Below, in pieces: positions 11,378 through 35,618 of a stretch of DNA of 43,124 nucleotides; position 1 is the first letter of the stretch, and the number at the start of each line of letters is the position of its first letter. Made by a program: the position numbers and the translations under genes. The notes under the pieces are model-generated. The model did not search any database, was not told where the DNA came from, and worked only from the letters and a program-made list of their open reading frames with translations. Origin of the DNA: a virus; the IMG/VR virus record IMGVR_UViG_3300035703_000161, positions 1-43,124 of that record, one strand, 5' to 3'.

Positions 11378-11560
11378 TGGAACGCTGGAACGCTAGTGGA
11401 ACGCTACCGCAAATAGGTTAGCGTTCCACTCCAAACCAATGATTCTATATATACTTATCTCCTCTGGAACGCATGGAACGCTGAAAATACAAAAGTAGTG
11501 AAAACACAGAGAGGAAAATAGGGAATAGGAAATCGTGCGTTCCAGCGTTCCAGCGTTCCA
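11378..11560. repeat. Iteron field: nine copies of TGGAACGCT in both orientations
   Basis: Nine 9-mers in a gene-free 262-base region. Plus orientation: 11378, 11386, 11397, 11465 (last base A) and 11474. Minus orientation: 11420, 11536 (one variant base), 11544 and 11552. Adjacent copies overlap by one base, an eight-base period. An AT-rich stretch (about 11437-11460) lies between the two clusters. Such arrays serve as replication-origin iterons, terminase cosB-type sites or operators. Position between primase-helicase and terminase genes allows any of these. Confidence 0.85.
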
Positions 11561-31559: not shown

Positions 31560-31591
31560 AAAAAAAGCCCCCGCCGGTTAGGGCAGGGGCT
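31560..31591 (-). terminator. Rho-independent terminator of the late block
   Basis: Ten-pair minus-strand hairpin (31582-31591 with 31566-31575, one wobble) followed by T7 (31566-31560). It lies 24 bases past the last late gene and just upstream of the early promoter. Confidence 0.9.
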
Positions 31592-31615
31592 TGAGTATCT
31601 ACGGCAGTGCGGGCT

Positions 31616-32959: not shown

Positions 32960-33613
32960 TTACCCCCGGTCCAAGTCGTTGTAGATGCGGCGGTAGGCCG
33001 TCTCGCCCTTCGTCGCGATCCAGTAGGCCGCGTCGTGGACCTCGATCATCCGCCACACGGTCCCCATCTCATACCGCAGATGGAGGTGAATGGGCTTGTC
33101 GGGCGGGAAGCCTTCCCGGACCATCTCCTCGGCGTCGAAGTACGTCTCACCCAAACCGCCACCGTTGGCGATCAGCTTCGGCGTGGGCAGCGCCATGCCG
33201 TTGCGATACCGAGCGGATTTCGCGGAAAGCTCTTCGGCCAGCAGCCGCCCCTCGGCGATGGTGGCCGTGTCCGTTTCGGACTTGCCCTCGAAGGTGGCGG
33301 CGTATTTCTTCAGGATGTCGGGCTTGCCGACTCGGGCAATTCTATCAAACATGGTGGGGTCCTTGGATGGGTTGGATAAATTGAATTCTTCGGATTGGCG
33401 AGAATTCAATTTATGAACCTCGTCAATCGTGATATTGGGGCGATGAAGCTTTAGATTTCCGTAGGCGAGACTAGCAGCCTGCTCGGCCTTGTCTTTCGCC
33501 GTCATGGCCGCGCTCATAGCGCGGAGCTTGGCAATCGTCTCCGGCTTGGCGAAGAACTTCTCAGCGTCGAGCACGGGGCGACCGTCGGGGGTGATAATTA
33601 GGCAGTCGCTCAT
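32960..33613 (-). CDS. Unknown 217-residue late protein
   Basis: MSDCLIITPDGRPVLDAEKF..., a helical middle ('DPTMFDRIARVGKPDILKKY') and C-terminal 'HDAAYWIATKGETAYRRIYN'. No signal peptide or known motif. ATG 33613 lacks a visible Shine-Dalgarno and sits at the foot of the stacked hairpins at 33614-33719, suggesting structure-dependent translation. Confidence 0.62.
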   Translation of the reverse strand: MSDCLIITPDGRPVLDAEKFFAKPETIAKLRAMSAAMTAKDKAEQAASLAYGNLKLHRPNITIDEVHKLNSRQSEEFNLSNPSKDPTMFDRIARVGKPDILKKYAATFEGKSETDTATIAEGRLLAEELSAKSARYRNGMALPTPKLIANGGGLGETYFDAEEMVREGFPPDKPIHLHLRYEMGTVWRMIEVHDAAYWIATKGETAYRRIYNDLDRG

Positions 33614-33719
33614 GGAGCACCGGTGCCCCGTGATTGAAATGGCTCACGGGGCGAAGCCTAACGGACCATTTGCCCGAGGTCAGGAAAATGGTCCGGCAAC
33701 CTGCCAGCCGAGGCTGGCA
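33614..33719 (-). other. Three perfect hairpins plus a palindrome in a late intergenic region
   Basis: From the ATG of the 217-residue gene upstream there are four elements: near-palindrome 33614-33629; stem GCCCCGTGA/TCACGGGGC (33625-33633 with 33644-33652); stem CGGACCATTT/AAATGGTCCG (33662-33671 with 33686-33695); stem TGCCAGCC/GGCTGGCA (33702-33709 with 33712-33719). No T tract follows any of them. It could be a structured leader, a processing cassette or a protein-binding site. I recognise no named RNA class. Confidence 0.75.
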
Positions 33720-33728
33720 TTCTCGCAA

Positions 33729-33911
33729 TTATCGGTTGGTTAGTTGGTGCCACGCCGCGTCTACCCGCGCCCACTGCTTCAGCTCCAGGTGGCCCGCGCG
33801 GAGCGATTCGACGTAACGGTTATAGTGCGTCGCGAAGTGGTTCAGGTCGTCCAGGTCAGTCGGTGCCGGAGTCGGGCGGCCGAACAGGGCGAGGAGGAGG
33901 CGACGGGTCAT
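33729..33911 (-). CDS. Unknown 60-residue protein after the endolysin
   Basis: MTRRLLLALFGRPTPAPTDL..., ending VDAAWHQLTNR. Short hydrophobic start, otherwise soluble and helical. ATG 33911 overlaps the endolysin stop by four bases. Possibly a lysis accessory by position only. Confidence 0.62.
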   Translation of the reverse strand: MTRRLLLALFGRPTPAPTDLDDLNHFATHYNRYVESLRAGHLELKQWARVDAAWHQLTNR

Positions 33912-34330
33912 TTCGGCAGTTCCCCCCACACCCCGCTCCATCGAACCTGCCCTCCGTTGCGGTCGTAGGCCCAAACGACGCGCCCACCGCGCGGCACGCC
34001 GCCCCGGATGTCCAAATGCACGAACCGCTGGTGCGGCGCCACCCCCACACCGGTAAACTCCGGGAAGTCTTTCAACGCGGCCCAGATCATCGCCTGCGGC
34101 GGCCCGGTGATGTCCGCGGCGATGCCTTCCGTGTGGCGGCCGGGCTTCGCTTTAACGCGCTCCAGTCGATGCCGCGGGCATCGGTAGCCGCTGGTGATGC
34201 GAATGGGGCCGAGCCGGTCGCGGAGGCCCTGGAGGAGCTCCACTAGGCGGAACTGCACCCCAAGCGCGCCGCAGCAGGTACAGGCGAACTCGCTCGCGCG
34301 GAAGTCACGGGTTAGTTGGTCGGTGTTCAT
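33908..34330 (-). CDS. Endolysin: M15 D-Ala-D-Ala-type peptidase
   Basis: A 140-residue peptidase M15_3-like enzyme with zinc ligands His67 and Asp73 in GRHTEGIAADI and His105 in RFVHLDIR. The family opening 'FRASEFACTCCG' and 'RITSGYRCPRHR' are present. It cleaves peptide bonds in host peptidoglycan. It has no signal peptide, so it needs the holin. Start overlaps the phosphoesterase stop by four bases. Confidence 0.9.
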   Translation of the reverse strand: MNTDQLTRDFRASEFACTCCGALGVQFRLVELLQGLRDRLGPIRITSGYRCPRHRLERVKAKPGRHTEGIAADITGPPQAMIWAALKDFPEFTGVGVAPHQRFVHLDIRGGVPRGGRVVWAYDRNGGQVRWSGVWGELPK

Positions 34331-35193
34331 CCGGCAGACTCCGCTGTTGTAATCACTTCCAGCCCATTGCGGTCGCGCCACAGGTCGAAGTGCAACCACC
34401 AGCCGCCGAGCGGCCGAGCCGAACGGCCCTTCTCGATGTGGTAGCCGCTGCCGTCGAGGTGCTCCCGCTTGTAGCAGCTTCCACGGAGGAATAGCTGGTG
34501 CATCTCGACCACGCTGCCGACATGATCCAAGTGGAGAACCACGTTCTCGTCACAGTTCTTGCGGTGGATGTGGCCGCTGTAGTGGCCGTTGGCAATGTAC
34601 TGCCCCCGCGTCCGGCTGTTGTCGATGAGGCCGCGTGTGACTTCTCCGCCGCCGCCGTAGCCGTGGTGGTAGTGCAATATCCAGCTTGCGTTGTGCTTGT
34701 TGGCGTCAACAAACCGGAACCGCACGAACCCCATGAACGGCATATGAAGCACGGGCGACTGCCCCTGCCGCAGAGCCTGGACCAGCCGTTCGATCAGGTC
34801 CGTCTGGTGGTGCTTGAGCATCGCCGTCTCGTGGTTGCCGTCGGAGATTATCGCGATGTTCCGAGCATATTGTCCGTAGAGATCCGCGTGAAAATTTACC
34901 AGCCGGTCAAGGTAGTTCCCGCCGCGCATCTCAGGTCGGAGATGGGATTCGCTGGCCCGCTTGTCCCACTTACCCTCCATGGCGCAGAACGTGTCGCCGA
35001 GCTTCAGGATCGGCGCGCCCGCATCGACCGCTTGCTGGTGGTGCTTGCGGATGAGGCCCAGGTCGGCCTGGAGGTTATCCGCGTGCTCGTCGGACATTAG
35101 GAGCACGCTAAACCGCTCTTTCTTGCCGGAGGCCCGGAACACGATCTCGGCTGACAACTGCCCGAGACGTTCGACGGTCCAGCGGTTGGCCAT
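34327..35193 (-). CDS. Calcineurin-like metallophosphoesterase
   Basis: A 288-residue enzyme with the full metal-site set: D35-x-H37 in MSDEH, GD at 66-67, GNHE (119-122), His176 in 'HYHHG' and 'GHYSGHIH' (203-210). Such enzymes hydrolyse phosphomono- or diesters. No signal peptide is present, so it should act in the cytoplasm despite lying among exported proteins and the endolysin. Substrate unknown. Confidence 0.88.
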   Translation of the reverse strand: MANRWTVERLGQLSAEIVFRASGKKERFSVLLMSDEHADNLQADLGLIRKHHQQAVDAGAPILKLGDTFCAMEGKWDKRASESHLRPEMRGGNYLDRLVNFHADLYGQYARNIAIISDGNHETAMLKHHQTDLIERLVQALRQGQSPVLHMPFMGFVRFRFVDANKHNASWILHYHHGYGGGGEVTRGLIDNSRTRGQYIANGHYSGHIHRKNCDENVVLHLDHVGSVVEMHQLFLRGSCYKREHLDGSGYHIEKGRSARPLGGWWLHFDLWRDRNGLEVITTAESAG

Positions 35194-35618
35194 CAGTTGA
35201 CCGCCACCTTCGCCGATTCCCGCAACTCGGTGACTTCGACGCTGACGATCTCAATTTCCCCAAGCACCCAGGAGGCCCCCGAGTCGTAGGTCGGGTGGAC
35301 CTCGGCGAACTGCACGACCGTATCAAGGTGGCCGTTTCTGCGATAGGTCATGCTGATGCGGAACGCGCGGATGGTGGGGTCGCTGGAGCGCACCCAGACC
35401 TGCTGGCCCTTCTGATCCGGGAACATCGCTGCGCCCGTGGTGCGGCGCAGCATCGGGTAGTCGATGCACTGCACCCTGACGTAGCCGGTGGCCGTTTTCG
35501 TTTCGCGGCCGCAGAGGTCGGAGGGTTGCGCCGAAGCCACCGTAGCCCATGCGAAGCACGCGGCCAGAGCGATGACCGCAAACGTGAACAGGTCAATGAG
35601 AAACGTCCGGATACTCAT
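35193..35618 (-). CDS. Exported protein 1 of the late cassette
   Basis: A 141-residue protein. MSIRTFLIDLFTFAVIALAA... ending ..ASAQ is a signal peptide or N-terminal anchor. The mature part opens 'PSDLCGRETKTATGYVRVQC', with two cysteines able to form a disulfide, and is otherwise beta-rich. ATG 35618 overlaps the previous stop (TAATG). No family recognised. Confidence 0.68.
   Translation of the reverse strand: MSIRTFLIDLFTFAVIALAACFAWATVASAQPSDLCGRETKTATGYVRVQCIDYPMLRRTTGAAMFPDQKGQQVWVRSSDPTIRAFRISMTYRRNGHLDTVVQFAEVHPTYDSGASWVLGEIEIVSVEVTELRESAKVAVN

Follow-up and report, generated by a model that had tools for sequence, protein, structure and literature searches.

Genomic setting of the hairpin cluster

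The window, meaning the whole stretch of DNA analysed, was a 43,124-base IMG/VR record (IMGVR_UViG_3300035703_000161) of a tailed phage in which the packaging, tail, and lysis genes all lay on the minus strand. The minus-strand order around the locus was phosphoesterase, M15 endolysin, a 60-aa gene, a spacer (positions 33614–33728), a 217-aa ORF, a small gene, and holin (Table 1). Three hairpins, H1, H2, and H3, followed one another in the spacer. The 60-aa gene gave no relative when used as a query against viral contigs. A distant homologue was present in contig L042, adjoining the same phosphoesterase, with no hairpins 3' of the gene. Relatives of the whole spacer were sought in phages, in IMG/VR, and in the record itself, and none was found beyond L002.

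Table 1. Features in and around the hairpin spacer, with positions in the window.
Feature	Position	Strand	Remark
Phosphoesterase	34327-35193	-	In exchanged module
Endolysin, peptidase M15 family	33908-34399	-	In exchanged module
60-aa gene, 5' of hairpins	33729-33911	-	ATG overlaps endolysin stop (ATGA)
H1, TGCCAGCCTCGGCTGGCA	33702-33709/33712-33719	-	8 bp and 2-nt loop; physically 7 bp and CUCG tetraloop
H2, CGGACCATTTTCCTGACCTCGGGCAAATGGTCCG	33662-33671/33686-33695	-	10-bp outer stem, mismatch, 4 inner pairs
H3, GCCCCGTGA-N10-TCACGGGGC	33625-33633/33644-33652	-	9 bp, 10-nt loop
Near-palindrome, GCACCGGTGC	33617-33626	.	Overlaps one H3 arm; just 5' of ATG 33613
217-aa ORF, 3' of spacer	32960-33613	-	Relatives share residues 88-217
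Fourth hairpin, 14 bp perfect, AT-rich, ATAAATTGAATTCT/AGAATTCAATTTAT	33376-33414	-	Within ORF residues 66-87, just 5' of conserved start; also in L002
Likely start of conserved gene	ATG 33352-33350; AAGGA 33364-33360	-	Start of match with relatives
Exchanged module (phosphoesterase, endolysin, 60-aa gene, hairpins, 86-aa extension)	33353-35198	-	Different block in sister phages L003-L016

The 217-aa protein had 14 relatives in sister phages, which aligned only from residue 88, corresponding to ATG 33352, and no homologue among named phages. An earlier, sequence-only reading of the locus stated that the gene after the hairpins has no Shine-Dalgarno sequence; this is correct for the ATG at 33613 but not for the conserved start, which has AAGGA 7 nt upstream. 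Residues 1–65 were coding-like, with a third-position GC of 0.74, whereas residues 66–87 were not. Since the relatives matched from residue 88 only and the composition changed at residues 66–87, the ORF probably joins two pieces, a reading backed by the swapping of the block 33353–35198 in sister phages. L002 was the only relative with the extension of the ORF, and its contig stopped at codon 4. Its sequence and that of the window differed at 3 of about 250 positions in the extension region and by several per cent over the next 300 nt.

Structure of the cluster

Three perfect stems of 9, 10, and 7–8 pairs occupied positions 33625–33719. H1 began 9 nt past the stop codon of the 60-aa gene, and H2 began 33 nt past it, with H1 between. 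Of all sets of three disjoint stems within 110 nt in the whole window, the cluster ranked first (26 pairs), and no such triple occurred in any of 30 first-order shuffled windows. The minus-strand RNA had a folding energy of −69.4 kcal/mol, compared with −45.8 ± 4.3 kcal/mol for shuffled sequences (z −5.4), and none of 200 shuffles was as low. The plus strand of the spacer also folded well (z −3.5). In the predicted fold, UUAGGC beside H2 paired with GCCUAA in codons 4–6 of the ORF, and the AUG lay in a small loop.

These results bore out the three inverted repeats described in the sequence-only reading (9, 10, and 8 pairs, with the near-palindrome), its view that such pairing is beyond chance, and its statement that the RNA layout has no known name, as no Rfam family matched. 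That the stems and the near-palindrome fill almost all of the intergenic region also stood, with the spacer corrected to run on the minus strand from the stop of the 60-aa gene (33729) to ATG 33613. The idea of a single stacked motif controlling the next gene was not sustained, because the three hairpins differed in their affinities and their position after a stop codon pointed to a role in the 3' untranslated region. The evidence did not show the hairpins as one motif: H2 was a copy of a dispersed family, H3 had a stem frequent in phage terminators, and H1 was generic. Because no relative had the same spacer, H1 and H3 were assessed from their structure.

The stem of H3, GCCCCGTGA/TCACGGGGC, was found in 56 viral contigs with many loop lengths, often between A- and T-tracts as a terminator stem. 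In the spacer, all three stems lacked a following T-tract on both strands, and no terminator-like site was found in 33300–34000. The same phage had a canonical U-tract terminator at 31565–31592. As such terminators occurred elsewhere in the phage, the cluster was not simply its usual terminator. A separate 12-bp perfect hairpin, AGTGGAACGCTA/TAGCGTTCCACT, was observed at 11395–11430 of the window, in the interval separating the primase gene from the next one.

The H2 family

H2 belonged to a family of 30-letter hairpins with the pattern GACCATTTT-nnY-GACGYC-Rn'n'-AAAATGGTC. The arms were conserved in sequence on both sides, and the centre of the element, GACGTC, was itself palindromic. The spacing was fixed wherever it had been left free in the search. 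A search of 398 Pseudomonadota genomes for GACCATTTT-N(6-20)-AAAATGGTC located the pattern at 17 distinct places; the 9-nt arms were exactly 12 nt apart in every one, a spacing that H2 shared with the other family copies. Five viral contigs had the pattern CGGACCATTT-N(8-20)-AAATGGTCCG, with the two parts separated by exactly 14 bases in each of them, and four bacterial contigs carried CGGACCATTT-N14-AAATGGTCCG. The pattern GACCATTTTCC-N8-GGAANATGGTC was present in 36 viral contigs, where by our estimate far fewer than one would be expected.

A covariance model was built from 34 family copies, with the window left out. It matched H2 at 33664–33693 with 37.9 bits and an E-value of 4.5e-6 on the minus strand, and with 34.3 bits on the plus strand, the E-values being rough. 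The next-best match in the window had an E-value of 0.71, leaving H2 as the only strong match, and 288 kb of unrelated phage DNA gave no match at E ≤ 1. In the 34-copy alignment, 5 of the 12 pairs had changed on both sides (15 cells; 0 of 500 shuffles). The paired fraction was 98% of cells and fell to 36–59% for slid structures; some alignment rows had been oriented to favour G–U pairs, and this increases the paired percentage while leaving the number of two-sided changes unaffected. The variable inner positions changed together, as CC/GG, GC/GC, CG/CG, GT/AC, and GG/CC. The sequence-only reading had looked to relatives for a covariance model and for preserved pairing. For the H2 family, to which both analyses were applied, the model recovered H2 as its sole strong match, and pairing was kept through compensatory changes. 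The compensating changes and the conserved arms suggest selection on the family.

No Rfam family exceeded its gathering threshold over the element in the window or in 13 loci with family members, and a search of the window up to E 10 gave nothing but a chance mir-456 match (E 1.8). The accattttcctgac sequence was not found in the literature searched. The H2 family is widespread and apparently has no name in Rfam, for the loci tested, or in the papers searched.

Location of the family copies

The most frequent position of non-coding copies was directly past a stop codon. Among intergenic copies, 11 of 23 lay within 20 nt of an ORF stop, compared with 14.5% of random intergenic positions, and about half were not near a called stop; genes in metagenomic contigs were simple longest-ORF calls. 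In isolated phages, the copy lay 4 nt past a stop codon in Bordetella phages CN1 and MW2, 18 nt past in Bordetella phage FP1, and 6–7 nt past in Flavobacterium phage tant8-1. Nearly all changes among the CN1, MW2, and FP1 hairpins preserved pairing on the coding strand, either as G–U or by compensation; MW2 had one broken pair, close to the base. The G–U pairs fell on the transcribed strand in 8 of the 9 independent loci, including the window, where an adjacent gene gave the direction, although this count is our own, small, and partly post hoc.

As a rule there was one copy per genome, and the window had one. Two intact family members and one decayed member, differing in their inner pairs, stood in tandem in L116 (8110–8220). 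Some H2 relatives were followed by TTTTT (L123, L125, and L137). A decayed H2-type copy lay between two canonical terminator copies in the sister phages L002, L003, L004, and L016 (L003:6715–6830; L002:1970–2085), and the same site in the window, L009, L013, and L015 had a single terminator with no H2-type copy, the counterpart in the window being 31565–31592. This terminator duplication can be read as an insertion or as a deletion by repeats.

Many bacterial and prophage copies lay within dinD-like genes, where the same 30-nt palindrome as in the non-coding H2 encoded D-H-F-x-D-V-x-K-M-V and the x codons covaried as reverse complements. The amino acid pairs V/N, G/T, A/G, R/T, and P/R followed from these codons. 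Pairing held at 12.6 of 15 positions in 24 distinct dinD sequences from viruses, compared with 10.8 ± 0.2 when halves were exchanged between sequences (0 of 2000), and part of this excess may be inherited, as the exchange ignores shared ancestry. The protein motif accounts for the fixed spacing in dinD but not for the match between the halves. These observations suggest that dinD codon choice is constrained by nucleic-acid structure. The dinD coding palindromes with codons covarying beyond amino-acid need were seen at L106:685–716, L147:3207–3236, L155–L159, and L160–L239.

A further copy lay upstream of the dinD-like gene in L190 (505), L215 (517), and L246. In L246, copies at 1158, 1409, and 1864 were upstream of, inside, and just downstream of the gene. 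The possibility that H2 is a relic of dinD was rejected; most non-coding copies had no dinD homology in their flanks, and the window contained no dinD homologue. The literature searched gave no link between DinD and palindromes, with part of the search matching whole words only and so unable to match 'palindromic'.

Comparison with known elements

Phage intergenic hammerheads with palindromic stem III sequences have been reported (PMC3088659). In L045 (4952–5036, minus strand) and L046 (10108–10192, minus strand), an H2-type palindrome formed stem III of a type II hammerhead (RF02276; 62.1 and 53.7 bits, respectively). Both contigs also carried a C4 antisense RNA. H2 and H3 in the window had the same order as stem III and stem I of these ribozymes, but a type II hammerhead was rejected since the core (CUGANGA, GAAA, UH at the junction) was missing: no GAAA preceded H2, no CUGANGA followed H3, and there was no hammerhead match in Rfam to E 10. 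In L140 (4099–4128, minus strand), an H2-type palindrome lay between GAAAC and GAGCAGCC just upstream of a gene and is perhaps a decayed type II hammerhead.

Repetitive extragenic palindromes (REPs) are 20–40 bp long (PMC3733652). H2 resembled them as a short, non-coding palindrome of similar size, often found downstream of genes. Unlike REPs, H2 had no GTAG/CGTC end tag, a low copy number, and no TnpA_REP in sight, and its family was spread over phages of very different hosts instead of being multiplied in one genome. The H3 stem was identical to the GCCCCGTGA stems of phage intrinsic terminators, but the G+C-rich stem and U-tract of a Rho-independent terminator were not found together on either strand. 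The promoter-early stem-loops (PeSLs) of T4-type phages are short intergenic stem-loop cassettes that are tied to module exchange and carry a promoter. The cluster differed from these in that no promoter-like site was found at this locus.

Possible role of the hairpins

We see about an even chance that the 60-aa gene has a structured 3' untranslated region, made up of the three hairpins, that acts at the mRNA level. The location of the cluster 9 nt past the stop, together with the crowding of H2 relatives just after stops, points to such a role, and the post-stop position, compensated pairing, and G–U pairs on the transcribed strand argue for a hairpin formed in RNA at the 3' end of an mRNA. 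The minus-strand transcript would fold directly past the stop of the 60-aa gene, in a late operon after the endolysin gene. The hairpins may protect, or set, the 3' end of lysis transcripts coming from upstream, and may let only part of transcription through to the next gene. H2 itself recurs in phages at this position after many different genes, with both its sequence and its structure conserved, and a factor may recognise its conserved arms. Protection from 3' exonucleases, a processing site, and partial termination are all possible, so that RNA stability, processing, or termination may be affected; we place most weight on 3'-end protection.

It is unlikely that H2 instead works as DNA, as a palindromic site for a dimeric regulator or a recombinase (for example through 11-bp arms and a 6-bp centre), with the hairpin as a by-product. 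The arms conserved on both sides, the palindromic GACGTC centre, and the nearly palindromic element as a whole would suit such a protein, as would the copies upstream of or around the dinD-like genes of L190, L215, and L246 and the two to three tandem copies in L116. However, the variable inner positions stayed complementary, which a protein ignoring those bases would not need, and G–U pairs tended to the transcribed strand. Two copies formed hammerhead stem III, the copies crowded after stops and not at promoters, and no integrase or regulator gene lay near H2 in the window. That H2 is a small REP-like palindrome, mobile or spread passively, functionless for the phage and gathered in the same spacer with an unrelated H1 and H3, also appears rather unlikely. 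Its dispersal over unrelated phages and contexts, the location of the spacer inside an exchanged module, and the decayed copy between duplicated terminators, absent where the terminator is single, agree with mobility. Against it stand the usual single copy per genome, the lack of a visible target-site duplication at H2, and the conserved arms with compensating changes, which suggest selection; the terminator duplication could equally reflect repeat-mediated deletion. The sequence, pairing, and fixed spacing kept past stop codons in unrelated phages, in hammerhead stem III, and in dinD make neutrality of H2 unlikely.

Two further readings carry less weight. A row of ordinary transcription terminators is very unlikely: the wide occurrence of the H3 stem, in many contigs with A- and T-tracts, and the TTTTT after some H2 relatives speak for it, but none of the three stems was followed by a T-tract, and the phage has its canonical terminator at 31565–31592. 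We consider it highly improbable that the cluster is a leader controlling translation of the 217-aa ORF, in which a small hairpin holds ATG 33613 and pairing of UUAGGC with GCCUAA could mask this start. The predicted fold, the missing Shine-Dalgarno sequence at 33613, and the coding-like codons 1–65 would fit a leader, but the start of the conserved gene is at 33352, preceded by a separate AAGGA, H2 relatives lie after stop codons, and no relative shares the arrangement.

A broader proposal, which we hold tentatively and consider unlikely to be right, is that the palindrome is a shared regulatory hairpin read by a single conserved factor of bacteria, or by the DinD-like proteins themselves. 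Its placement by phages behind stop codons and within ribozyme stems, and its presence in the coding sequence of dinD, would then amount to a regulon that spans phages and rests on one hairpin of RNA or DNA. The H2 family offers a concrete target for identifying the factor that may recognise it and its effect on phage mRNA.
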